This document shows, piece by piece, positions 4,774 to 20,136 of a stretch of DNA of 64,000 nt; within the stretch, counting starts at the first letter, position 1, and the number at the start of each line of letters is the position of its first letter. The notes under the pieces were generated by a model. That model was not told the DNA's origin. It saw only the letters and a list, made by a program, of their open reading frames with translations, and did not search any database. The stretch lies in IMG/VR virus record IMGVR_UViG_3300005264_000003, positions 1 through 64,000 of that record, one strand, 5' to 3'. The position numbers and the translations under genes were made by a program. The DNA is from a virus.

Positions 4774-5452
4774 TATACCATGGGCAGATTCGGGTAAATT
4801 TACTAGACATACAAACTGGGCTCAAGGTTGGGGAATGACTAGGTATGGCGTAGCTACAGCCATTACTGCTTCTGCATATACGACAATCGGTACGGGAGCA
4901 CAATTTTTAAATGATGCACATAGTCAAAATCCTAATACAATGGAAAACTTAGGATATGGCACTGGCGCAGCTATAGGTGAAGGATTAGTCTTAGTAACAA
5001 TGGGTATTACGGCTGCTGATGCATATAGATCTAGAGGATCAAACCTAAAGAATCCTGCATTCCAGGCTACTATGTACAAAGACAAACTTTACAGAAATCC
5101 TAATACTATTGTAGGGCCAAGAACTGGAACGAAAGTTAAAAATGCACCTAGGGCTAAAACAGGCCTATTCAGAGGCGGTAAATTTATTAAGCCAATGAGC
5201 TGGAAAAAAGATATTAGCCTAGGCATTGGAGCTATGCTTACAGGAATGGTCGCGTCAGCTGGTCTTGGCATGGTAGGCAGATATATTGATGGTAATATAG
5301 CTGAACACAAACGGAGAAGCGTGATAGATTACGACTCTAGATTTTTTGATACAAGAAGATATGATCAGGCTACTAATAATCAAGTTGGAATGGCTATGCA
5401 AAACTATAGCGATAGACTTGTAAGTGTAGCTAGAATTCATCATAGCAGATAA
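4766..5452 (+). CDS. 228-aa Gly/Ala-rich protein with conserved-looking C-terminus
   Basis: AGGAGAG precedes the ATG. The middle contains two hydrophobic Gly/Ala-rich stretches (about residues 60-83 and 150-172) separated by a basic region. The C-terminus, from FFDTRRYDQATNNQ to ARIHHSR, is polar, aromatic and arginine-rich and looks like a structured tag. The next gene encodes a protein of the same size and composition. Such Gly-rich amphipathic proteins in large phages are often internal virion or membrane-interacting proteins. I do not recognise a named family. Confidence 0.55.
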   Translation: MSSIPWADSGKFTRHTNWAQGWGMTRYGVATAITASAYTTIGTGAQFLNDAHSQNPNTMENLGYGTGAAIGEGLVLVTMGITAADAYRSRGSNLKNPAFQATMYKDKLYRNPNTIVGPRTGTKVKNAPRAKTGLFRGGKFIKPMSWKKDISLGIGAMLTGMVASAGLGMVGRYIDGNIAEHKRRSVIDYDSRFFDTRRYDQATNNQVGMAMQNYSDRLVSVARIHHSR

Positions 5453-5463
5453 TAGGGGGTAGT

Positions 5464-6153
5464 ATGAGTATAACATCTAAAGCAGGCGAAACATTAACTG
5501 ATTGGCTTGGTATAGCTAGCCATGGATCAGAAGGCTTTTCCAGGCTAGTACAAAAAGAGTCACAAATAAGCAGGAGAGTATATGGAAGGACTGCTCCGAA
5601 AGTGCCGAGGACTGGTAATCGTACAATTCCATTTAGAGGAGCAAGGAAAGCAGCTCCTATTGGGACTCTGTTTGTAGGACCACCAAGACCAAGTCTCCCT
5701 CCCTCTCCTATGAATACTGGCTGGCGAGGCGCTCGTGACGGAATTGGCTCTGGCATAAAGAAGTGGGGATGGAACAGTAAGAAGCAAGACCTAACAACAG
5801 CAGGATATGAGGCGCTAGGCAGTGTTGCTAGAGGCGCAATGATTGGGGTAGCAGGCAATATCGCATATGGTGCTGCGAGTGCAATTGCTCCAAATAACTT
5901 TCAGCGGGACAGAAGCGTGTTTTCTTCTGCCTTTAAAGGTGCACTAGGCGGAGCAATCCTAGGAGGCGCAAGAGTTGCTGGCGGAGGCATAAGAGCAGCA
6001 CACTTTAACGGGAGATACCAAGGCATAGCTAATGCTGGTAAGATGATACGCAAGGCTAGTGATAATAAGGTTATACGTGGAGCACTAATTGCTGGCATTG
6101 CTGGTTCGCAAGGTAGCTTTTCAATGACCAGGCCTGTCAATAAAGGCTACTAA
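5464..6153 (+). CDS. 229-aa basic Gly/Ala-rich protein
   Basis: It follows the previous gene by 11 bases with its own GGGGG-type site and ends TAATG into the terminase gene. The N-terminal 110 residues are basic and Pro/Arg-rich. Residues 118-178 form Gly/Ala-rich hydrophobic stretches like those of its neighbour, followed by a short basic tail. The two genes may be diverged duplicates or two subunits of one assembly. Function is unknown; an internal head or membrane-active virion protein is the likeliest class. Confidence 0.5.
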   Translation: MSITSKAGETLTDWLGIASHGSEGFSRLVQKESQISRRVYGRTAPKVPRTGNRTIPFRGARKAAPIGTLFVGPPRPSLPPSPMNTGWRGARDGIGSGIKKWGWNSKKQDLTTAGYEALGSVARGAMIGVAGNIAYGAASAIAPNNFQRDRSVFSSAFKGALGGAILGGARVAGGGIRAAHFNGRYQGIANAGKMIRKASDNKVIRGALIAGIAGSQGSFSMTRPVNKGY

Positions 6154-9071
6154 TGAGAATAAATCACCCTAAGTTTAAAAATAAAATTTGTCAAGCCTGC
6201 ATAAAAGCACAAAAGGCTAAGTATGGTAAGTTTGACATGAAGTGTAGTGGCATAACCATTGAAGCTGATGTTAAATTTGCTATGAAGCATGGCAATATGT
6301 CAGAGGAGGATGCTAGGTATATATATGACCCAGTGTTCTTCTTTGAAGCTAGCTTTGGATCTCCTGCGAGAGACTATCAGATCCCTATCTTGCAATGCAC
6401 AAGCAGAAACTTAGTCTCAAGACAGTGTCGGCAGACAGGCAAGACTCTTGCTATTACAAATAAGATCTTACACTACGTAGGCACCAATGACAATGCTACT
6501 GTTCTTATAATAACTCCACAAGAAAAGCAAATTAAAAAGATCTGGGATGAGTACATATTCCGAGATGGTATAGATAAAAACCCTAGATTATCTGTAAAAA
6601 GAAAGCGCGAGAAGCCTTTCTATCAAGTTGAATTCGATAATGGATCTAAAATAATGCTTATGATTGCAGGCCCTGGTGCTCGTGGTCAATGCTTACCTGC
6701 TGGACAGCTAGTAACTATGCATGATGGGTCTCAGAAGGCAATAGAGGAGATAGAGCTAGAGGACATTGTACTTACGTTTGATGATAAAGATAATACTTTA
6801 AAGCCTAATAAAGTGAGAACTCTTCACGGTAATGGCATAAAAGATATCTATGAAATAGTTACCGAAAGCGGAAGAAGGACAAGAGCTACAGGTAATCATC
6901 CATTTTACATTAACGGTGAGTGGAAAGATGCAGATCAGATCAACAAAGATGAGCTAATTGCTATACCTAAGCATGTCCCTTTTGGTAAAAATAAACTGAA
7001 TGACGCCCTAGTAAAGTATATTGGATACATGATTGGAGACGGTACATGCTCTTCTGTTGAGTCTACTCCGTTTAAGTTTACAGTAAACAATAATACGATT
7101 AAAAGTGAGTTTATTAATATTTGTTCATGCCTAGGCATTAAGATTAGCAGCATTCATCAAGACACAAGAAGAGATAATTTATTTAATATTGCCATGTCTG
7201 CAAGAAAAACAGGCACTGCTTATGATGTAATGAATAGCTATAATTTATATGGTAAGAAGTGTGACACCAAGAGTATTCCAGAAGAAATAATGTCTTTAAA
7301 TAAACAGCAACTTGCCTTGTTTATTAACAGGCTATACTCTACGGATGGCTGGATATGCCATAGCCCTGGGCAAAGAACTATTAATACTGAAATTGGATAT
7401 TGCTCTACTTCTAAAAAACTAGTTACTCAACTGCAATATTTATTAAATAAGTTCCAAATCAAATCTAGAATACAAGAAAAGGAAAAATCTCTTAATGGAA
7501 GAGCCTGTAAAAGACAATACATACTTAAAATAAGAGATAAAAAACAGACACTTGACTTTATTGAGCAAATTGGATTCATATTTGGGAAAGAAGAAAAGTC
7601 TAAGGAAGTTTTTGATATAGTCAACAAGGACAGTATAAGAAGTAGAGTATACAGATCTGACATTAATGATATTTACTATGAGAAAGTAAAAAGCGTAAAT
7701 GTAGTTTCTAGTGAAGAAACTTACAACTTAACGATAGAGAATACACATACTTTTATAGTAGATGGTATCATAACTCATAATACTGCTGATTGGATCTATT
7801 TGGATGAAGCAGCAATTATACCAAATGATATGCTTAAAGATATAGTCATGACAATCGCTTCTCGTGGAGATGAAGCTACAATGCTATTGACATCCACGCC
7901 TATGGGTCGTGGTAATGTATTCTATACAGCATGTAAGGAAAACTCTGTATTTAGAGAGTTCCATGTATCTATTGATGACGTACCTAGTATGCATAATATG
8001 ATACCTCAATTTAAGAAGCTATTAGGTGAAACTGGGTATATACAAGAGGCACTAGCTGAATTCCCAGCTACATCAGGCGGTCCATTTAACCTTAATGGAA
8101 TTACTTTAGCTAAGACAGATTATGAGTATGAACATGCTACTAGAAGTGGAGGTATGTTATACTTCGGAGGAGTCGACTGGAACGGACCGGGCATAGGTAC
8201 TTATTTCTATATAGTAGGCTTTGACCCTCAGAGTTATAAGTTTAAGATAGTAGATAAGCAGATAATAGCTTCTGCTAACTGGAATAGTACTGTTGCTAAA
8301 CAGGCTCTTATAGAGTTAAACAGAAAGTGGGAACCGAAGCATTGGATGTGTGATTATGGATACTCTCAATCCTTAATAGAAGAAATTAGACTATATTCAA
8401 TGAAAGTTAATGTCGAAAATGGACATCCAGATACACAACTCAAGCATATAGTAGAAACAGTAGCATTTGGATCACCTATGGAAGTAGAGGATCCATTTAC
8501 TAAAGAAATGACTAAGAAGACAGCTAGATCGTTTATAGTCTCACAGGTTGCAAGATTATTCGAGCCACAAGGTACTACGGGCAAGGAGTGGGTTCCAATA
8601 CAATTCTCATCTCATGATGAGGAGTTAATAAAGTCTCTTGAAGTATATAAGTTGCTATCTATATCAAGAACAGGCCAAGAGCAGTACGGTATAGATTCCA
8701 AGGATGGAGTAGAGGATCATGCAATGGATGCTTTTATTCTAGCTATTTACGGCGTTGTTAAATATTACAATGAGCTGTTTAAGAAGATTATATATTCTTC
8801 AGTTTCATTTAATGCAACAACACTACTTGGTGCAGAAGCAGAAGAAGAGCTAGAAAAGAATGTCGTAGCTGGAGGAATCATCTTATTAACAGATAATAGC
8901 CCAGAGCCAATCTATCTTGACGAAAGAGTAATTAAGGATCCTTCTGAGGCAAAAGAGATAATTATATCAAGAAGCTTTTCTAAAGGAATGACAAAGAGAG
9001 CCTATACAGAAAAAAATCTTTCTGGTATAATGAGAAGTAGACGTGGAATGATTAGAAGAAATAATTTTTAG
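6153..9071 (+). CDS. terL: Terminase large subunit, interrupted by an intein
   Basis: This is the ATP-driven DNA packaging motor and genome-cutting nuclease. Walker A is RQCRQTGKT (residues 90-98). Walker B is WIYLDEA (547-553) and the coupling motif LLTSTP follows. The nuclease half shows its acidic residues in GGVDWN, MCDYGYSQS and EDHAMDAF. Residues 180-543 are an intein, so the spliced protein would be 608 aa, normal for the family. The insertion lies just before Walker B, at Gln179/Thr544. Cys13, Cys16 and Cys31 near the N-terminus add a possible metal site unusual for terminases. The start overlaps the previous stop. Confidence 0.95.
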   Translation: MRINHPKFKNKICQACIKAQKAKYGKFDMKCSGITIEADVKFAMKHGNMSEEDARYIYDPVFFFEASFGSPARDYQIPILQCTSRNLVSRQCRQTGKTLAITNKILHYVGTNDNATVLIITPQEKQIKKIWDEYIFRDGIDKNPRLSVKRKREKPFYQVEFDNGSKIMLMIAGPGARGQCLPAGQLVTMHDGSQKAIEEIELEDIVLTFDDKDNTLKPNKVRTLHGNGIKDIYEIVTESGRRTRATGNHPFYINGEWKDADQINKDELIAIPKHVPFGKNKLNDALVKYIGYMIGDGTCSSVESTPFKFTVNNNTIKSEFINICSCLGIKISSIHQDTRRDNLFNIAMSARKTGTAYDVMNSYNLYGKKCDTKSIPEEIMSLNKQQLALFINRLYSTDGWICHSPGQRTINTEIGYCSTSKKLVTQLQYLLNKFQIKSRIQEKEKSLNGRACKRQYILKIRDKKQTLDFIEQIGFIFGKEEKSKEVFDIVNKDSIRSRVYRSDINDIYYEKVKSVNVVSSEETYNLTIENTHTFIVDGIITHNTADWIYLDEAAIIPNDMLKDIVMTIASRGDEATMLLTSTPMGRGNVFYTACKENSVFREFHVSIDDVPSMHNMIPQFKKLLGETGYIQEALAEFPATSGGPFNLNGITLAKTDYEYEHATRSGGMLYFGGVDWNGPGIGTYFYIVGFDPQSYKFKIVDKQIIASANWNSTVAKQALIELNRKWEPKHWMCDYGYSQSLIEEIRLYSMKVNVENGHPDTQLKHIVETVAFGSPMEVEDPFTKEMTKKTARSFIVSQVARLFEPQGTTGKEWVPIQFSSHDEELIKSLEVYKLLSISRTGQEQYGIDSKDGVEDHAMDAFILAIYGVVKYYNELFKKIIYSSVSFNATTLLGAEAEEELEKNVVAGGIILLTDNSPEPIYLDERVIKDPSEAKEIIISRSFSKGMTKRAYTEKNLSGIMRSRRGMIRRNNF
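6690..7781 (+). other. Intein with LAGLIDADG endonuclease inside terL
   Basis: The 364-residue element begins with Cys (CLPAGQLVTM, block A) and ends with the His-Asn pair of block G (VDGIITHN), followed by Thr as the +1 extein residue. Block B is present as ATGNHPFYI and block F as ETYNLTIENTHTFIVDG. Two LAGLIDADG-type helices, YIGYMIGDGT and RLYSTDGWI, indicate a homing endonuclease domain. All residues needed for canonical Cys-type splicing are visible. The insertion point is a highly conserved ATPase motif, the typical target of homing inteins. Confidence 0.93.
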
Positions 9072-10726: not shown

Positions 10727-12153
10727 TGTCTAGTATATCTGATTTTACAAACAGTAACGAGTATACAACGATACTCGGCAATATAACTAATGGCGCCTCT
10801 AGCTTAAAGATAGAAGGCAGCGTCATATCTCTTGATAATGGAAAGATATCTGGCGTATCAACACTGCTTGAATCTGCAAAAGGAGTAGCATCAACAGTTA
10901 CTTCTCCGCTAGTAGAGCTAACGAGCTATTCTGCTCCAGCCACCTTGGCTCTAGATAGCTTCTATTCTATAGGCCAAGAGTTTGACGAGATGATAAAGGA
11001 TAATTTAGCTGTGCAAACTATGCACATTAAAGGGTCTGATATACTATGCTCAGCATTCTGTGTTGTTGTTAGCTTTTTGGATTGCAAAACTAGAAATGAA
11101 CTGTATAGTGCCATACTAAACATGCAAAGAGGACTAACAGCTGTAGCTCAAATGAGTGCTGCCGCCAACGAGCTCGCTAGAACAGCAAATGCCTCAATGG
11201 CAGCAGCAGAAACAGTTGTAAGTGCAGCTACATCTATATTTGATAAAAATCCTATAAATACAGTTTTTGATAAGCAGCCAAGTGGCATGTCTGTGGCTAT
11301 GGCAGCATCTACAATCGGAGCCTTAGGTAAAAGCGTTGGAGGTATTGTAGAGACGTTTGAAAGGGGAATTAATGTACTTAATTATGGAAGAGTATTAAAG
11401 CCAACAAACGTTACTTGTTTAATATGGGACTTAGCTAAAAGCGTACTATATTCACTTCAGGGACAGGCATTGTCCTATGCTAACGAGGCGATTGATAAGG
11501 TCATTTCACCTATCGAGGACATGATAATAGGTTGGATTCCGTCCGAGTGTGGCACAAGGGGATATGCCTGGAGATTCTTTCAGAAAATACTGGATGGAAT
11601 AACAAGAGAAAAGCACTGGATATTACAGTTAATAGCAGATATGTTTGCTTCAGGAACGGACTTTTCGGACAAGATGGGGAATTTTAGTAAAGACTCCTTA
11701 GACATGTTAGAGCTAAGAGCGTTTCTAGATGCATTAAAGATGTCTTCGCATAGATTTGGTGACCTAGCTATAGCATGTGGCATTGCACCATGCAATGATG
11801 ATTTAATAACAGATGAAGGAAAAGCTCTTGCAGATGCTATTAAGAGCGGAGTTGCATCCACAGCTCCTCCCGGCATACCAAATGTAATAAACAGCTTGCC
11901 AGTAAAAGGTACTACTAACCTAGATGAGATATCTGAATCGATGGCCAGCATGCTTGGATTGCAAGGCGAAGATGTAATAGCAACTGAAGACAGTTTATCA
12001 TTTACATATACAGTGGCAAGTAATGCGCCCAGTAAAATAAAAGAACTAGTAAGCCTTAATGATCTTGGACCCGACTATTCTGTATTTAACAACGGTAGTG
12101 AAATTAAAGTCATACACACGTTCAAGCGAATGTGCGGTGGAGAGAATAAATAA
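10726..12153 (+). CDS. 475-aa Ala/Ser-rich virion-type protein
   Basis: The start overlaps the previous stop and its own TAATG starts the portal gene. The protein is Ala- and Ser-rich, with long helical stretches at about residues 45-75 and 125-200 and several weakly hydrophobic segments. There is no signal peptide. It contains no enzyme motif I recognise. Its position suggests an internal head or portal-vertex protein. Confidence 0.5.
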   Translation: MSSISDFTNSNEYTTILGNITNGASSLKIEGSVISLDNGKISGVSTLLESAKGVASTVTSPLVELTSYSAPATLALDSFYSIGQEFDEMIKDNLAVQTMHIKGSDILCSAFCVVVSFLDCKTRNELYSAILNMQRGLTAVAQMSAAANELARTANASMAAAETVVSAATSIFDKNPINTVFDKQPSGMSVAMAASTIGALGKSVGGIVETFERGINVLNYGRVLKPTNVTCLIWDLAKSVLYSLQGQALSYANEAIDKVISPIEDMIIGWIPSECGTRGYAWRFFQKILDGITREKHWILQLIADMFASGTDFSDKMGNFSKDSLDMLELRAFLDALKMSSHRFGDLAIACGIAPCNDDLITDEGKALADAIKSGVASTAPPGIPNVINSLPVKGTTNLDEISESMASMLGLQGEDVIATEDSLSFTYTVASNAPSKIKELVSLNDLGPDYSVFNNGSEIKVIHTFKRMCGGENK

Positions 12154-14315
12154 TGGAATTAAAAATAAACCCTACGCCAGGCCAACTAGACAGTGCTAAG
12201 AGATTTTTATCATTAGCAGATAGCACAAAATCAATAATACCGGTAAGATCAACTCCTATTATCTCTAAGCTGGCCCGGAATATAAAAACTGTCAATGCTC
12301 CAGTTCCTAGATTCTTTGAGTCTCCTGAGCAAATAGCTAACTCTTCTGGTTCAGAGTATGATTTGATATCCGTATTTAAGCTATTAAAATATGAGCCATA
12401 TTTCTTAAAGGCTACTCAAAAAAAATTAGGACTACTAGTTAAGTCTGGATTTCAGATCAATAGCGATAACGATAACATTAAGAAATATATTGATACAAGA
12501 TTTTCATTAATGTTTCTTCAGACAGGCTGCTCTTTAAGAGAAATTATACATAAGCTAGCATACTACTTAATTACATGCAGCAACGCATTCCTTATCAAGG
12601 TAAGAGATAAGAATTTTCAGCATGCGACATCATATAAGTTAGATGGGAAAGAAATGCATCCAGTTGTAGGGCTATTTTTAGCTCATCCAACAAGTATGAA
12701 GCCTAGATTTAAGACTCAGAAGATGGGTAAAGGTAAGTATAAGCTCGTGATTGATAAGTGGGTTCACTTTAACTCAAGAGGAGAAACTGCTGAGTTTCAT
12801 CCTGATGACATAGTTCACTTTACAACACTTAGAGAAGATGGCATGATATTTGGAATGCCAGAAGTGCATCCTGTAATTGATGATGTACGCACGCTTAGAA
12901 AGATTGAAGAGGACGTACAGCTTCTAATATATAGAGACTTATTCCCTGTAATACATTACTCAATTGAGAATCCATCAGTAATAGATCATGCGAGCGGAAT
13001 GACAGAGCTAGATCAGGCAAAGCACGATATGCAAAGTGTAATTCAAGACGGTGGTATAGCTACAGATGCAAGACACGAAATTAAGTTCGTAGGCAATGAA
13101 CATAAAGGTATTGATGCTAAGCCATACTTAGAATACTTCCAGTCTCGTGTATTTACAGGACTAGGCGTATCAATGGCAGACATGGGCATAGGGCAAGACA
13201 TTAGTGGCGCGACAGCATCTTCCATGTCTAAGCAACTAACAGACGCTGTAAGATATATTCAGCAAGAGCTAGCACAACAGTTTAACGAGCTAATTCTAAC
13301 TGAAATGGCACTGCAATCTCCATTCGGAATGAGTGCTGTTAATGATAAGTCAGCGCCTACGCTAGAGTTTAATGAAACTGATATCGAGTGGAAGATTAGA
13401 CAAGAGAATCACGAAGCAGATCTTTTTGCTAAAAACGTAAAAACAATAGATGAAGTAAGAGCTAAGCTAAACGTAGAAGAGCTTACTGATGAGCAATTAA
13501 CTAGAACGTTCCAAGGACTATTTGGTCAACTACAAGTAGATCAAGCAACAGAAGCAGGAGAGCATCTTGCTAAAGTTGGAGCATCAGCGGCACCTCAGAC
13601 TGTCAAGACCGCTACTGGTGGCACTAAGCAAGTTGGCGGAGCTAAAGATCCTGGCACGTGGAATAATCCTACATCTACTGGCACAGGAAAGAAGTCAGCA
13701 GCTGATAGAGATTCAGTTAAGTCAGCCAAGTCTAATTCTAATATAGTTAAATCCGTAAAAGACTCAGAAGACAGCATCTCTATACAAGACCAGTTTAAAG
13801 AATCAGTTACGTCTATACTTGAGATAAACGACAAGGGTAAGAAGAAGCTAGATTTAATATTCGCTACCAAGATGACATACGAGACTATAAAAAGTAATAT
13901 GATGGACTCCTTCCACGAGGGCATTAGCGCAGCTATTGGGGACATAGGCAGTGTATTACATGACAACAATAGATCTAGTCTAGATATTATCCATAATATA
14001 TTTGAGAAGGTAGACAGACTAAGAGATAATATTGTAGGTAAGCTTAATGCCGATCCAAGCTATCTTAATATTGCAGCAGCAAGAGTAGGCGCTACTAGTA
14101 AAACAGAGCAAGTAAGAGCTTATAATTATGGATATGCTTTAGCAAGTTTAAATAATGGTATAAGTAAGTTTACTATTTATTCTGAACATAAAGACATTGC
14201 ATGTGATAGTTCTGAATTTGTAGGAAAGGAAATTACAGTAAGTAAAGCCACGGCCTTTAGCGCAATACCTCCTTTTAGGACAAACTCAAGACTTAAAATT
14301 AAAGCTATAACATAA
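12153..14315 (+). CDS. Portal protein with C-terminal MuF-like domain
   Basis: The portal forms the dodecameric ring through which DNA enters and leaves the head. Portal features include the FHPDDIVHFTTLREDG strand-turn region followed by YRDLFPVIHY, and the conserved turn GLGVSMADMGIGQDISGATA before a long helix. Residues 430-560 are a Ser/Thr/Lys-rich linker. The last 60 residues (HKDIACDSSEF to IPPFRTNSRLKI) align by eye with the end of Mu gpF/SPP1 gp7 head-morphogenesis domains. The usual second Cys and terminal Cys-Arg-Cys are replaced by Ser and Ser-Arg-Leu, so metal binding is probably lost. Length 720 aa fits a portal-MuF fusion. Confidence 0.8.
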   Translation: MELKINPTPGQLDSAKRFLSLADSTKSIIPVRSTPIISKLARNIKTVNAPVPRFFESPEQIANSSGSEYDLISVFKLLKYEPYFLKATQKKLGLLVKSGFQINSDNDNIKKYIDTRFSLMFLQTGCSLREIIHKLAYYLITCSNAFLIKVRDKNFQHATSYKLDGKEMHPVVGLFLAHPTSMKPRFKTQKMGKGKYKLVIDKWVHFNSRGETAEFHPDDIVHFTTLREDGMIFGMPEVHPVIDDVRTLRKIEEDVQLLIYRDLFPVIHYSIENPSVIDHASGMTELDQAKHDMQSVIQDGGIATDARHEIKFVGNEHKGIDAKPYLEYFQSRVFTGLGVSMADMGIGQDISGATASSMSKQLTDAVRYIQQELAQQFNELILTEMALQSPFGMSAVNDKSAPTLEFNETDIEWKIRQENHEADLFAKNVKTIDEVRAKLNVEELTDEQLTRTFQGLFGQLQVDQATEAGEHLAKVGASAAPQTVKTATGGTKQVGGAKDPGTWNNPTSTGTGKKSAADRDSVKSAKSNSNIVKSVKDSEDSISIQDQFKESVTSILEINDKGKKKLDLIFATKMTYETIKSNMMDSFHEGISAAIGDIGSVLHDNNRSSLDIIHNIFEKVDRLRDNIVGKLNADPSYLNIAAARVGATSKTEQVRAYNYGYALASLNNGISKFTIYSEHKDIACDSSEFVGKEITVSKATAFSAIPPFRTNSRLKIKAIT

Positions 14316-14371
14316 CAGCAACGACTTGACTATTAACACATTAATGCATCTACTTTCGAAAAGGAGAACAC

Positions 14372-15116
14372 ATGAGTAGGGGTAAAAAATAACCAATAAA
14401 GAGTTTTCAGATTGCGCCAATGAGATTCATCTGTTTAGATATGATTACTCTAAAGTAAAGTATATAAACTCTTATACTAAAGTTTGTATTAGCTGTCCTG
14501 TTCATGGTGAATTCTGGCAAAGGCCGGCTGCTCATCTACAAGGACAAGGATGTCATAAGTGTTCTCGCTGCAACCAAAAACAGAATAAGCAACTTACAAC
14601 AGAAGAATTTACAGAGAAAGCAAAAAGTATACATGGTAGTAAATATAGCTACCTGAAGACTTCATATGCAGGAAATAGAAATAGTATAACCATTACATGC
14701 TTAGATCATGGTGATTTTGAGCAAATTGCAGGCAATCATATCAGAGGATACGGATGTCCTAAGTGTAACTCATCAAAGGGAGAATTTCTTATCAGAGAGT
14801 ACCTGCCTCACAAGAAGATGCTGTTTGAAGAGCAAAAAAGATTTAAAGGATGTAAGGTAAATAAAGCTTTGCCTTTTGATTTTTATTTACCAAGCCATAA
14901 TCTTCTCATAGAATATGACGGAGTTGCTCATTTTAAGCCAACTACATTTGGAGGAATGAGCATGGACAATGCTATTCTAAATCTAGAGAATCAAAAAACA
15001 GAGATAGAATTAAGAACGAGTATGCTAAGGAAAACAAGATTAAACTTATAGGAGTGCCTTATTGGAAGATTTCTAATATAAGCGCAATACTAGACTTAGA
15101 GCTAAATAATAGTTAA
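14372..15116 (+). pseudogene. Homing-endonuclease gene broken by two frameshifts
   Basis: AGGAGA and ATG at 14372 open a frame that stops after six codons. Shifting -1 at the A6 run (14384-14389) gives a long frame with two zinc-ribbon repeats (CPVHGEFW...GCHKC and CLDHGDFE...GCPKC) and a Vsr/restriction-like nuclease core (PFDFYLP...LLIEYDG). A second A6 run (14993-14998) needs another -1 shift to reach RIKNEYAKENKIKLIGVPYW and the stop at 15114. The whole would be about 248 aa, typical of free-standing phage homing endonucleases. One extra A in each run would restore it, so decay, slippage or sequence error are all possible. Confidence 0.8.
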
Positions 15117-15120
15117 TAAC
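15112..15120 (+). repeat. Intergenic motif GTTAATAAC (copy 2)
   Basis: This copy lies 43 nt before the gene at 15155 and overlaps the end of the broken endonuclease. It is followed by ATA, as at the 20224 copy. Confidence 0.4.
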
Positions 15121-15154
15121 ATAATGAAAGTCAAAATAAACCAAGGAGAACGAT

Positions 15155-15514
15155 ATGTCTGAAGATAAGAAGCCTAAAACTCGCAAAAAAAGAACACCTA
15201 AAAGTAAAGTTGAAGTTACGGCTGTAGAGCCTGTAGAAGTTAAGCCAGAGACTCAGCCAGAGCCCACAGAAGAAGCTCCAGTTGAGGAAGTTGTAGTAAA
15301 TGAGGCTCCAGCAGGGGTAGCGGAAGTTAAGCCCATTAAGCCAGTAAAGAAAGATATTGAAGAAGGATCTGAGGTTACTATAGTTAAGGTGTCTGGTAGA
15401 TTCTCAGTTCTTAATGGCAAGCCTGGTGTTGTGTTAGAGAAGATTGGTGGAAGTCTTCTTGTTGAAATTGAAAACAAGAAATACTCACTAACAGTTAGAA
15501 ACGTAGAGGCTTAA
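15155..15514 (+). CDS. 119-aa protein: disordered linker plus small barrel
   Basis: AGGAG precedes the ATG. Residues 1-20 are Lys/Arg-rich and residues 20-68 are a Pro/Glu/Val repeat that is surely disordered. Residues 70-119 form a compact beta pattern (EGSEVTIVKVSGRFSVLNGK, then LLVEIENKKYSL) like a KOW/SH3 barrel. It stands directly before the protease-scaffold gene, 1 nt apart. A role in head assembly or nucleic-acid contact is possible. Confidence 0.5.
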   Translation: MSEDKKPKTRKKRTPKSKVEVTAVEPVEVKPETQPEPTEEAPVEEVVVNEAPAGVAEVKPIKPVKKDIEEGSEVTIVKVSGRFSVLNGKPGVVLEKIGGSLLVEIENKKYSLTVRNVEA

Positions 15515-15515
15515 A

Positions 15516-17573
15516 ATGATTCTCAATAAAGATTCCATTAAACTATTTGAACAATATCAGGTAAACCTACCGGAAGCTGTTCTCATTAAGATGGAGGATG
15601 GAATCAGGAAGGATAAAGAATTACTAATAACAATAGATGCTAGTCATTATGGACTTCGCAACAATAACGGTACCATCTATCGTCATGACACAATGATTAA
15701 TGACGTACAGTCGTTTGTTTACCCTAAACCTAAGCCTATTATTGAGAGACACAGACCTAGTACATCAGCTAAGTTTGGTAGCATTATCGCTGCAGACTAT
15801 AAGCTAACAAATTATCATGCAGATCTTTTGCAAGATATGGATGTTGACGGATTAACTACAGAAGAGTATATTGATATGTGTAACGAAGAGATTCTTCCTA
15901 TGCAGCTCAGAGATGCTAATTATAATGGACTCGCCTATGTGCAGGTTGTTGGTAAGCTAGATGACAAAGAAGGCATAAAGAAAGTACTTGATGGTGAATT
16001 CTTAAGTGTTTCAATAGGAGCTTCTCCTAGAAGACTTATATGTTCTATATGCTTACAAGATCAAACAAAAGGCATATGTGAACACTTCGCCAATAAAGCA
16101 AGCAATAGATTTATGCTAGCTGAGCAACTAGACTACGAAGAGCTTTCATTTGTTCCAAAGCCAGCAGATCCATTTGGTAGAGTAGTTAAGATCCATGATG
16201 GTCAAATGGAAGAATTTCAAATAGAGCATGATATCAATATACTTAATACTGGTATTAATGTAGTATACATGGAAGACTTCTTTGAAGAAGCTAGAGATAA
16301 AACAATTGTATGTGTAGATAACATCTGCACAATTATTAACCAGGAGGAACAAAAGATGGATAGAAAGAATATTTCTATTGCAGATGAGTTCTCTGCTGAG
16401 ATTCTATTAAATGCCCTGAAGAACATTAAGCTAAATGATGAAGATAAGGATATCGTTAGCGCGCTCAAGCTGAATGAGGATAGAGCAAAGGACTGGACTG
16501 CTAGAAAGTTCGCCGTTGTTCAAAAAACTCAAGATGGTGAAGCACGTAGATTTCCTCTGAATGATGAGCTAAATGTTCGTGCAGGATTAGCATTAATTGA
16601 TCAAGCAGAAGATTTAACTGAAGCTGAGATGAAAAAAGCAGTTGCTAAACTAGGGAAGGCAGCAGCTAAGTTTGGCATTGAGCTAGAAGATAGCGAAAAG
16701 AATACTGAAGAAAAAAATGAAATACCTCAAGAAGAAGATACAAGTCTTTCTGATGAGGAAAAGGGTCAGAAAGCAGCCAAAGCTGATGCAGGTGCTGAAG
16801 ATACTTCTAGTACAGGTGAAGTAACTCCAATTGATACTCTCCTTGATTCTCTAAAAGAGGAAATGTCTAAGATTGAGTTTAAGGAAGCAGATCCAAAGCT
16901 AGAAGACAACACTGGCATTGATACTGTTAATTCACAAAAAGACCCAATAGGCAAGATCTTCGATTTACTTAAATGGTATGCTAACGATCAGGCTTATGCA
17001 GCTAAATCACTTAATAGCGGAGTTGGTGCATTCCTAGAAGAAGTTGGCAAGGAAGCTATCGCTAAAGGCTCTTACGATTCGTTGCGAGATGAAAAGACTG
17101 TGCTTGAAGATAGTGTTAAAGGATTTGAGTCTAGTAAAATTGAACTTGAAACTAAGAACACTGAGTTAGCAGAGGAAGTACAATCATTGCAAGATGAGTG
17201 TGACATTCTCGAAGAAACAGCTAAGGATCTTAACTATGAACTACGCACACATCTAGTAGATGAAGTAGTTGCATGCAAGCTAGCTATTGGCCTCTTAATT
17301 GATGCTGAAGTTGAGCAATCTAAGGTTGATCTATTTAAACTTCCATACAATGCTCTTAAGATGCAGGTTAATGATTCACGTAAGTTAACTGCAAAGCTTA
17401 AGGGCCCAGTTAATAACAAAGTAGAAATAGAAACAGTAAAAGACCCCACTCTTCAGGATAGTGATAATTCTGAGGAAAAAAATTCTCAGGCGCCCCCTGA
17501 GTTGAAAGATGAAGACGCTAGAAAAGAGTCTGGCGATGAACTAGTAAAAGCATTTGTAAACCTATTTAGGTAA
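15516..17573 (+). CDS. Prohead protease fused to capsid scaffold
   Basis: The N-terminal 250 residues look like a phage prohead maturation protease: His79 in KPIIERH, and Ser164/Ser166 in DGEFLSVSIGA preceded by AYVQVVGKL. A Cys/His insert (C176, C179, C188, H190) follows the serine. From about residue 281 the protein is acidic and helical with a coiled coil at 530-580, as in scaffold proteins, which fill the prohead and are then cleaved. A strong internal start at 16356 would make the scaffold alone. The neighbours downstream are a major head protein and the capsid protein, as expected. Exact protease family is uncertain. Confidence 0.8.
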   Translation: MILNKDSIKLFEQYQVNLPEAVLIKMEDGIRKDKELLITIDASHYGLRNNNGTIYRHDTMINDVQSFVYPKPKPIIERHRPSTSAKFGSIIAADYKLTNYHADLLQDMDVDGLTTEEYIDMCNEEILPMQLRDANYNGLAYVQVVGKLDDKEGIKKVLDGEFLSVSIGASPRRLICSICLQDQTKGICEHFANKASNRFMLAEQLDYEELSFVPKPADPFGRVVKIHDGQMEEFQIEHDINILNTGINVVYMEDFFEEARDKTIVCVDNICTIINQEEQKMDRKNISIADEFSAEILLNALKNIKLNDEDKDIVSALKLNEDRAKDWTARKFAVVQKTQDGEARRFPLNDELNVRAGLALIDQAEDLTEAEMKKAVAKLGKAAAKFGIELEDSEKNTEEKNEIPQEEDTSLSDEEKGQKAAKADAGAEDTSSTGEVTPIDTLLDSLKEEMSKIEFKEADPKLEDNTGIDTVNSQKDPIGKIFDLLKWYANDQAYAAKSLNSGVGAFLEEVGKEAIAKGSYDSLRDEKTVLEDSVKGFESSKIELETKNTELAEEVQSLQDECDILEETAKDLNYELRTHLVDEVVACKLAIGLLIDAEVEQSKVDLFKLPYNALKMQVNDSRKLTAKLKGPVNNKVEIETVKDPTLQDSDNSEEKNSQAPPELKDEDARKESGDELVKAFVNLFR
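16342..16358 (+). promoter_or_regulatory. Internal ribosome binding site for a nested scaffold
   Basis: AGGAGG at 16342-16347 lies 8 nt before an in-frame ATG at 16356. It is as good as any gene start in the window, though it lies inside an open gene, exactly where the protease domain ends and the acidic scaffold begins. Confidence 0.7.
16356..17573 (+). CDS. Nested capsid scaffold protein (internal start)
   Basis: Same frame as the protease-scaffold fusion, starting at its residue 281 (MDRKNISIADEF). The predicted product is 405 aa, acidic and largely helical with a coiled coil, ending KAFVNLF. Nested scaffold genes inside the protease gene are known in lambda (C/Nu3), where many free scaffold copies and few protease fusions are needed. 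Here the evidence is the internal ribosome binding site and its location at the domain boundary. Confidence 0.65.
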   Translation: MDRKNISIADEFSAEILLNALKNIKLNDEDKDIVSALKLNEDRAKDWTARKFAVVQKTQDGEARRFPLNDELNVRAGLALIDQAEDLTEAEMKKAVAKLGKAAAKFGIELEDSEKNTEEKNEIPQEEDTSLSDEEKGQKAAKADAGAEDTSSTGEVTPIDTLLDSLKEEMSKIEFKEADPKLEDNTGIDTVNSQKDPIGKIFDLLKWYANDQAYAAKSLNSGVGAFLEEVGKEAIAKGSYDSLRDEKTVLEDSVKGFESSKIELETKNTELAEEVQSLQDECDILEETAKDLNYELRTHLVDEVVACKLAIGLLIDAEVEQSKVDLFKLPYNALKMQVNDSRKLTAKLKGPVNNKVEIETVKDPTLQDSDNSEEKNSQAPPELKDEDARKESGDELVKAFVNLFR

Positions 17574-18927: not shown

Positions 18928-20136
18928 ATGGATTTATCGCAGAAACTACTTTCCTTTATGAAGGCTAGAAAACTTCTAGATGAGGATCAGATTGCTAAGG
19001 GTGACATTAAACTAAAGGACATTCTTAATAACAATGACCTTTCTCGTCTTGTCCCAATTGCTATTTCTGAAGTTGTTCGTGAGGCTAGTGAATTCGAGCT
19101 TCTTGCAACAAAACTCTTCAAGAAAATTAGTCAAAAGGAAGGTATCTATATTCAACTGCCCGCAGTTGGCGCTATGGATACAATCGAAGAAGTTGCTCCA
19201 GGTGCTGAGTACGGCACTGAAGAGATTACTTTAGGTGGGGGAACAGCAATCAGAGTTGATATCCGTAAGTATGGTATTAAACTGGGCCTTACTGAGGAAA
19301 TGATCGAGCAATCTCAATGGGATGTTATCGGTGAGTGGCTTAAGGCTGCTGGTAAAGCATTTGCACGTAAGAAGAACTGGATTCAATTCCAGATGTTTGA
19401 GCGTCAAGGCCTTACTCTTGTTGATAATAAAAACCCTAACCATACTGTTCTTGGCCGCGCACTTAGTGGTAAAGATGGTGCTGGTAACTTTAACTATTCG
19501 TTTACACACGAAGACTTCTTTGATATCTATGCAGCAATGCTTCAAGAAGGTTTCGCTCCAAACGTAGTTGTAGTTCACCCAATGACATGGGCTCTTTGGG
19601 TTAAAGATCCAATCTTGCGTGCCTTCACCATGACAAATGGTGGTGGTAACTTGATGGCTGGTTATGACCTTGGCGGAGTTAAGCGTGACAGCTTCTTCGG
19701 CGGGCTTGGTAAGTCTTCTGGTGGTGCTGATCTTGGTGAAGCTATGCCGCCTGATTTTCAAGGGCGTCCTATTCTTCCATCCTACCTTAACGTTCCTTTA
19801 AGTGTTATGGTTTCTCCTCAGGTTCCTTTTGATCCTGTTGCAAAAACTACCAGTATGTATTTTGTTAATACTGAGAATGCCGGAGCAATTGTTCAAGGCG
19901 AAGAGATCAATCATCACAGCTGGGCAGATCCAGAGCGTGATGTTCAGTTTATCAAGCTTCGTGAGAAGTATGGTATCTCAATGCTGAATGAAGGTAAGGG
20001 TGTTGGTGTTGTTAAAAACGTACCAATCGTTCCTAACCGTTGGGTTGATCAGCAACTACAGCCTACTGTGGTTATCGATCCTGCTAATGCTCAGGTATTC
20101 CCTGAAGACATGACAGCAACAGACAAGCTTGTTTAA
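18928..20136 (+). CDS. Major capsid protein, HK97-fold type
   Basis: This protein builds the icosahedral shell. The order of elements suits HK97-fold capsids of myophages: a helical N-arm, the strand IYIQLPAVGAMDTIEEVAPG, an E-loop-like segment, the long spine-helix region around GEWLKAAGKAFARKKNW, and the A-domain pattern FAPNVVVVHPMTWALWVKDP. Length 402 aa is typical. About a dozen Arg codons are CGT/CGC against two AGA, opposite to most other genes here. It has GGAGG upstream and a strong terminator downstream. Confidence 0.88.
   Translation: MDLSQKLLSFMKARKLLDEDQIAKGDIKLKDILNNNDLSRLVPIAISEVVREASEFELLATKLFKKISQKEGIYIQLPAVGAMDTIEEVAPGAEYGTEEITLGGGTAIRVDIRKYGIKLGLTEEMIEQSQWDVIGEWLKAAGKAFARKKNWIQFQMFERQGLTLVDNKNPNHTVLGRALSGKDGAGNFNYSFTHEDFFDIYAAMLQEGFAPNVVVVHPMTWALWVKDPILRAFTMTNGGGNLMAGYDLGGVKRDSFFGGLGKSSGGADLGEAMPPDFQGRPILPSYLNVPLSVMVSPQVPFDPVAKTTSMYFVNTENAGAIVQGEEINHHSWADPERDVQFIKLREKYGISMLNEGKGVGVVKNVPIVPNRWVDQQLQPTVVIDPANAQVFPEDMTATDKLV

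Follow-up and report, generated by a model that had tools for sequence, protein, structure and literature searches.

Evidence for a probable scaffolding protein nested in the protease gene of a large myophage lineage

Introduction

Can a single gene of a large tailed phage supply both a capsid-maturation protease fused to its scaffold and, from a second start codon in the same frame, the scaffold alone? This question is raised by an open reading frame (ORF) of 685 codons within the first 64,000 positions (hereafter the window) of an 87,348-base virus record, IMG/VR IMGVR_UViG_3300005264_000003. An earlier reading of the letters alone (the sequence-only reading) had proposed that an AGGAGG and an ATG at position 16356 start a scaffold gene nested within a protease gene, repeating the logic of lambda C/Nu3 in an unrelated large myophage: few fusions, many scaffolds. 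We followed up this proposal computationally and put the probability at roughly 0.87 that the gene encodes two proteins with a common C-terminus, the shorter being a scaffold that is translated separately from within its own protease gene.

Nested protease/scaffold genes are already known from lambda and Mu and, it seems, from one phage of the lineage considered here, 0305phi8-36. What the present analysis adds is a predicted start codon for the window gene, a conservation test across 29 clusters of relatives, a predicted protease fold shared with herpesviruses and T4, and a switch in the relative strengths of the two ribosome-binding sites between subclades.

Results

An in-frame internal start with a strong Shine-Dalgarno sequence

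The full ORF, a predicted protease–scaffold fusion of 685 amino acids, occupies positions 15516–17573 of the plus strand, which also carries the SDs, start codons, protein motifs and domains, nested ORF, portal gene and major capsid gene described below. Its start codon lies 1 nucleotide past the stop codon of a 119-amino-acid ORF (15155–15514) and is preceded by a weak Shine-Dalgarno (SD) sequence, GAGG (15506–15509; -5.8 kcal/mol). Reading of the sequence confirmed the internal site: AGGAGG at 16342–16347, a spacer of 8 nucleotides (16348–16355) and an ATG at codon 281 (16356–16358) in frame with 15516. Translation from this ATG would give a 405-amino-acid predicted scaffolding protein beginning MDRKNISIAD (16356–17573; 45 kDa, isoelectric point 4.5) that shares its stop codon and C-terminus with the fusion. 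The gene therefore has the layout expected of a nested pair: an in-frame internal start, a putative ribosome-binding site of its own and the same stop codon.

We scored SD strength as the energy of the duplex with the 16S tail, in kcal/mol, and allowed ATG, GTG and TTG as internal starts. Across the 41 plus-strand ORFs of at least 100 amino acids in the window (59.9 kb), the site before ATG 16356 (-10.3 kcal/mol) is the strongest SD at any in-frame internal start, and it also exceeds the SDs of all 41 ORF starts (best -9.9, median -6.4). Counting both strands, the window contains two instances of the pattern AGGAGG-N(4-10)-ATG. An equally strong site arose, however, at codon 281 in 14% of 1000 synonymous-codon shuffles that kept the protein, and anywhere inside the gene in ~20% of 200 shuffles. 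Because so many shuffles match it, the window sequence alone is suggestive rather than decisive, and it is conservation across relatives that makes the case for the predicted internal start.

Close relatives keep the site beneath a varying peptide

The sequence-only reading had named conservation of the site in relatives as a check, and this check came out in its favour. In an alignment of 14 close-family genes (the window gene plus 13 distinct subfamily members from viral contigs), M281 is the sole invariant methionine column, and a GAG-centred SD lies ahead of it in all 14, weak in two. The codon pattern xxG GAG Gxx is found in 12 of the 14, and the remaining two (L011 and L013) have AGA GAG GAA. 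Spacing from SD to start is 8 or 5 nucleotides, the difference arising through one-codon insertions or deletions, and the residues directly after M281 vary in identity and length.

These genes bear directly on a competing explanation, which holds that a conserved, glutamate-rich xEE peptide gives rise to the SD-like run as a by-product, that M281 is an ordinary conserved residue, and that the fusion alone is made and then cleaved to free the scaffold. It can draw on the strong conservation of CVDNICxIIN just upstream, in the linker between the protease fold and M281, and on the synonymous shuffles, which keep an equal SD in 14% of cases for the window, as given above, with maxima of 36% among the other close-family genes and 53% among the distant ones. 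What the by-product explanation does not account for is that the peptide encoded at the SD changes (QEE, QED, EEE, REE, RED, REA, PED, PEG) while the G-GAG-G core persists in 12 of 14 genes. The underlying codons are CAG GAG followed by GAA or GAT, GAG GAG GAA, AGG GAG followed by GAA, GAT or GCT, CCG GAG followed by GAT or GGC, and, in two genes, AGA GAG GAA. The central glutamate is encoded by GAG in 14 of 14, though GAG makes up only 17–44% of the glutamate codons in these genes. Together with the behaviour of distant relatives described below, this codon-level retention leads us to regard the by-product explanation as quite improbable.

The site recurs after the protease in distant relatives

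Relatives were found via the capsid protein and two alignments; one search with capsid patterns kept the best 80 of 87. One search relied on two peptide patterns, [VI]C[VM]DNIC and [LIV]TI[DA]ASHY, and the other two on capsid patterns only. Loci found only by the peptide patterns are not independent of the conserved linker peptide; the SD and M281 lie outside both patterns. The protease sequence alone returned no relatives in viral_contigs, and the protease alignment returned none in genome_contigs. In the fetched loci a protease profile matched 91 ORFs, of which 70 are distinct: the window gene, those of Bacillus phage KLEB27-3 and Moorella phage MTATph1, and 67 from viral contigs. Because these 70 ORFs are related, we also counted over the 29 clusters that they form at 50% identity.

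Offsets were anchored on PAD (residues 216–218, 16161–16169), the last conserved protease motif. The strongest in-frame internal SD/start falls 15–130 codons past this motif in 64 of the 70 ORFs, where start-codon positions alone would predict 20.6, and in 26 of the 29 clusters (binomial 9e-12). A narrower range of 45–100 codons, picked after the offsets had been seen, holds 61 of 70 ORFs and 24 of 29 clusters. Across the 70 ORFs, the best sites in the 15–130 range start with ATG (36), TTG (18) or GTG (16). In a control at the level of whole genes, the best internal site reaches -8 kcal/mol or lower in 55 of 70 protease ORFs, compared with 9 of 67 capsid ORFs from the same loci and 38 of 212 other ORFs of 400–900 amino acids. 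The absence of such enrichment in capsid genes also argues against the by-product explanation.

The largest cluster (17 members) shows the same codon-level retention as the close family. A single alignment column is ATG in 11 members, GTG in three and TTG in one, and the other two members have an ATG in an adjacent column. Methionine, valine and leucine thus alternate at this position while the codon stays one that can start translation, even though GTG accounts for only 7–37% of valine codons and TTG for only 6–38% of leucine codons in these genes.

Synonymous shuffling was extended to 64 of the 70 ORFs, leaving out six that have no clear boundary site (L003, L066, L077, L085, L046 and L047). 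The per-site shuffle value is below 0.05 in 30 of the 64 and the stricter anywhere-in-gene count is 14 of 64; the per-site values are biased low, because the tested site is the best of its gene in all but L011.

Several observations weigh against a conserved internal start. The best internal site lies outside the 15–130 range in six of the 70 ORFs (L089, L085, L046, L047, L077 and L003, the last being MTATph1, which lacks a convincing internal start near its boundary). L066 has its best site in range, but this is weak (-5.4), and L011 is counted in range by a non-homologous site, its homologous site being weak (-6.4). In the 14-member cluster that contains KLEB27-3, the called starts share an alignment column in only eight. 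Acinetobacter phage ME3, which is additional to the 70, has a weak best internal site (-5.4) after its protease match, at codon 224. Finally, our scan placed the annotated Z start first within gene I of Mu, a positive control, but did not rank the annotated lambda nu3 start (codon 239, -6.9) at the top. SD strength is thus an imperfect guide to starts. In lambda gene C, an in-frame ATG at codon 309 (L097 943–945; lambda record 5342–5344) has an SD of -10.8, against the -6.9 of annotated nu3.

The N-terminal half has a predicted assemblin/gp21 fold

We modelled the protease half with AlphaFold2 on 58 sequences (mean predicted local distance difference test score, pLDDT, 79.5). Residues 36–229 (15621–16202; ten-residue blocks at pLDDT 78–97) form a predicted assemblin/prohead-protease fold. 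In structural alignment with VIA-align, the model matched the varicella-zoster virus protease with a Z score of 11.1 (120 residues, 2.9 A) and T4 gp21 with a Z score of 10.5 (129 residues, 2.7 A). Herpesvirus and T4 proteases fill the top 25 rows; the first unrelated protein follows at a Z score of 6.4. Foldseek gave weak matches against the PDB (best expectation value, E, 0.27, to the human cytomegalovirus protease) and 135 matches at E<=0.001 to predicted viral proteins in BFVD, several of which are labelled prohead protease.

A PDB sequence search with alignment A1 returned nothing useful, and the window protein itself matches only an unnamed PHROG; six of eight relatives scanned match the 'head maturation protease' family phrog_18299, weakly. 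In the 58-sequence alignment, Ser166 within VSIGA (16011–16013) is invariant and is a candidate catalytic serine, and His79 (15750–15752), nearly invariant, is another candidate catalytic residue; His44 is also nearly invariant. The fold and the relatives' family matches support a predicted capsid-maturation protease domain of the assemblin/gp21 fold in the N-terminal half.

The same alignment contains a CxxC...CxH motif (C176, C179, C188 and H190; 16041–16085) in which the three cysteines are invariant and the histidine nearly so. It may represent a metal site.

The linker and the question of an internal promoter

The sequence-only reading had placed the internal start exactly at the boundary between protease and scaffold. 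This needs correction: since the modelled fold ends near residue 229, M281 lies not at the domain edge but ~50 residues further on, in a linker. Directly before the internal SD, the close-family alignment has a conserved peptide, K(T/K)IVCVDNICTIIN (16299–16340). Within the close family it ranks among the best-conserved linker segments; it was not seen in KLEB27-3 or MTATph1.

The RNA of this region can fold into a hairpin of nine pairs (16311–16331) in the window (z -3.1 for a 110-nucleotide stretch) and in L004. We discarded it as a conserved element, since pair counts across the 14 genes (13 distinct rows) gave no sign of covariation: in 200 of 500 trials, shuffled data attained the paired percentage of the real data.

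In herpesviruses, the nested scaffold gene UL26.5 has its own promoter inside UL26 (PMC2949831), and the nested protein of the window might likewise come from its own transcript. A sigma-70-like match (9/12) at 16216–16243, ~113 nucleotides upstream of the internal start, is what such a promoter could look like; the 4-kb region holds 11 promoter-like matches in all, and its shuffles would be expected to give 9.6, which is chance level and gives no signal. We consider an internal promoter highly improbable. It would in any case modify rather than replace a separately translated nested scaffold, because the same SD and start would serve.

The C-terminal half resembles a scaffold

That the nested gene encodes a scaffold, as the sequence-only reading had it, is a prediction from position, composition and predicted coiled coil; the protease assignment is supported by the fold. 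The C-terminal half is acidic (isoelectric point 4.5) and less conserved than the rest (mean pairwise identity 37% vs 59%, seven sequences). A full-length model from seven sequences was poor (pLDDT 47.6), and from it we used only a predicted long helix, a probable coiled coil, at residues 517–591 (17064–17288; blocks from residue 521 on at pLDDT 71–85). Two relatives, L002 and L048, have weak coiled-coil profile matches that start near the internal start. Position, acidity, variability and the predicted coiled coil together point to a scaffold.

One finding here belongs with those that count against our interpretation: Pfam and PHROG scans of the window protein found no recognised scaffold family in this half. 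The Pfam scan, at E up to 0.1, returned DUF6582 only (16533–16691; E 3e-4, below the cut-off), and relative L027 matches the same domain barely at the cut-off (27.4 vs 27.3). As DUF6582 is a domain of unknown function, the internal start might instead yield a non-scaffold product, such as a regulator of the protease or a minor component of the core. The location of the gene between those for the portal and the capsid, its coiled-coil content, its acidity and its low conservation are all scaffold-like, and make a non-scaffold product unlikely. Nor does the small upstream ORF offer a general alternative: relative L009 has no separate ORF of at least 100 amino acids between portal and protease, and none is annotated there in KLEB27-3.

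A model for fusion and free scaffold

We infer that both starts are used. Ribosomes starting at 15516 would produce the 685-amino-acid protease–scaffold fusion, and AGGAGG would recruit ribosomes to ATG 16356, giving the 405-amino-acid scaffold alone. Fusion and free scaffold would then co-assemble in the procapsid via their common coiled-coil part. By analogy with lambda, Mu and the herpesviruses, the scaffold tail would carry the protease into the procapsid, and the protease would later remove the scaffold and process capsid proteins.

The relative strengths of the two ribosome-binding sites differ between subclades. The internal SD outranks the fusion SD in every close-family gene (14 of 14). 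Among 48 distant ORFs with a score at each site, where the strongest site within the first 30 codons stood for the fusion start and the strongest in the 15–130 range for the internal one, it does so in only 10. In most distant relatives, SD strengths thus run opposite to the few fusions and many scaffolds of the original proposal. The protease frame continues past the boundary in all 70 distinct ORFs, some of which begin at a contig end; this covers loci with a match to the protease profile, and could overlook a split gene whose protease goes unrecognised. A broader idea, which we hold tentatively and at slightly less than even odds, is that nested starts of this kind are ancient and almost universal in a large and poorly studied lineage of big myophages with an assemblin-fold protease. 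The gene would have stayed unsplit, and the dose of fusion relative to free scaffold would have been re-tuned between subclades by strengthening either ribosome-binding site.

Comparison with known systems

Lambda C/Nu3 resembles the window gene in layout, an in-frame scaffold being nested at the 3' end of a protease gene (lambda record; PMC8508860, which cites Shaw and Murialdo 1980). The proteins differ. A table in PMC10695390 lists lambda C as an S49-family peptidase, whereas the Pfam scan of the window protein gave no S49 match, its predicted fold is of the herpesvirus/T4 gp21 kind, and BLASTP between the two is at chance level (E 1.1). The description of the phage as unrelated to lambda fits these observations.

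Mu is also alike in layout: its scaffold gene has an SD of its own and starts in frame within the protease gene. In the Mu record the annotation of Z reads 'start site internal to gene I', and PMC4378225 describes the I/Z arrangement together with a putative Val177 start with an SD in PaMx73. Mu I has 361 codons and the window gene 685; the internal SD is -7.4 in Mu and -10.3 in the window, and BLASTP is again at chance level (best E 0.64).

In fold, the nearest parallels are herpesvirus UL26/UL26.5 and T4. Herpesvirus UL26 also encodes an assemblin-fold protease fused to a scaffold that is encoded alone by a nested, in-frame gene (PMC2949831), but with the promoter described above; the window shows signs of an internal ribosome-binding site, and its promoter scan is at chance level. 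The window gene would therefore offer a clear case in which a herpesvirus-kind protease rides on a scaffold that the same gene also yields by itself, the additional signal being a ribosome-binding site and not a promoter. This difference would make the dose of fusion relative to scaffold comparable across many natural variants. The T4 protease gp21 is like the protease half of the window protein in its fold; the main T4 scaffold, gp22, is made from a separate gene.

A precedent for the arrangement is Bacillus thuringiensis phage 0305phi8-36. The Figure 2 legend of a 2007 paper (PMC2147016) labels one of its genes 'protease with nested scaffold gene', and it is on this label that we liken the arrangement to that of the window. 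We assign 0305phi8-36 to the same lineage as the window phage as probable, because the ME3 record notes portal and head homology to 0305phi8-36 and the ME3 head protein matches that of the window (30.8%). A legend label for one phage thereby becomes a trait tested over 29 clusters.

The nearest named relatives are KLEB27-3 gp014, MTATph1 CDS0006 and ME3 gp20. The protease half is 24.9% identical to that of the window in KLEB27-3 and 25.4% in MTATph1, and ME3_20 matches the protease profile at 5e-18. In the 468-codon gene of KLEB27-3, GAGGAGG precedes a GTG that lies in frame at codon 256. None of the three records annotates a nested scaffold in the head-gene stretches examined; our analysis predicts an unannotated scaffolding protein, and its start codon, for a lineage of large tailed phages. 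A literature search returned no paper on KLEB27-3, and none of the five papers listed by another search mentions MTATph1.

Neighbouring genes

Profile matches identify a portal protein gene upstream (12153–14315) and a major capsid protein gene downstream (18928–20136). The order is portal, 119-amino-acid ORF, protease–scaffold gene, 434-amino-acid ORF and major capsid protein; the protease–scaffold gene thus lies between the portal and capsid genes, with the 434-amino-acid ORF intervening before the latter. A tail-sheath match indicates that the phage is a myophage, in keeping with its earlier description as a large one.

Only short frames are found between the portal gene and the 119-amino-acid ORF (14316–15154). 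One piece of this region (14818–15051) resembles part of a VSR-type homing endonuclease, and a Pfam search with it gave no match. Further upstream, the large terminase ORF (6153–9071) carries an intein (Pfam Intein_splicing, residues 187–543) with a LAGLIDADG endonuclease domain.

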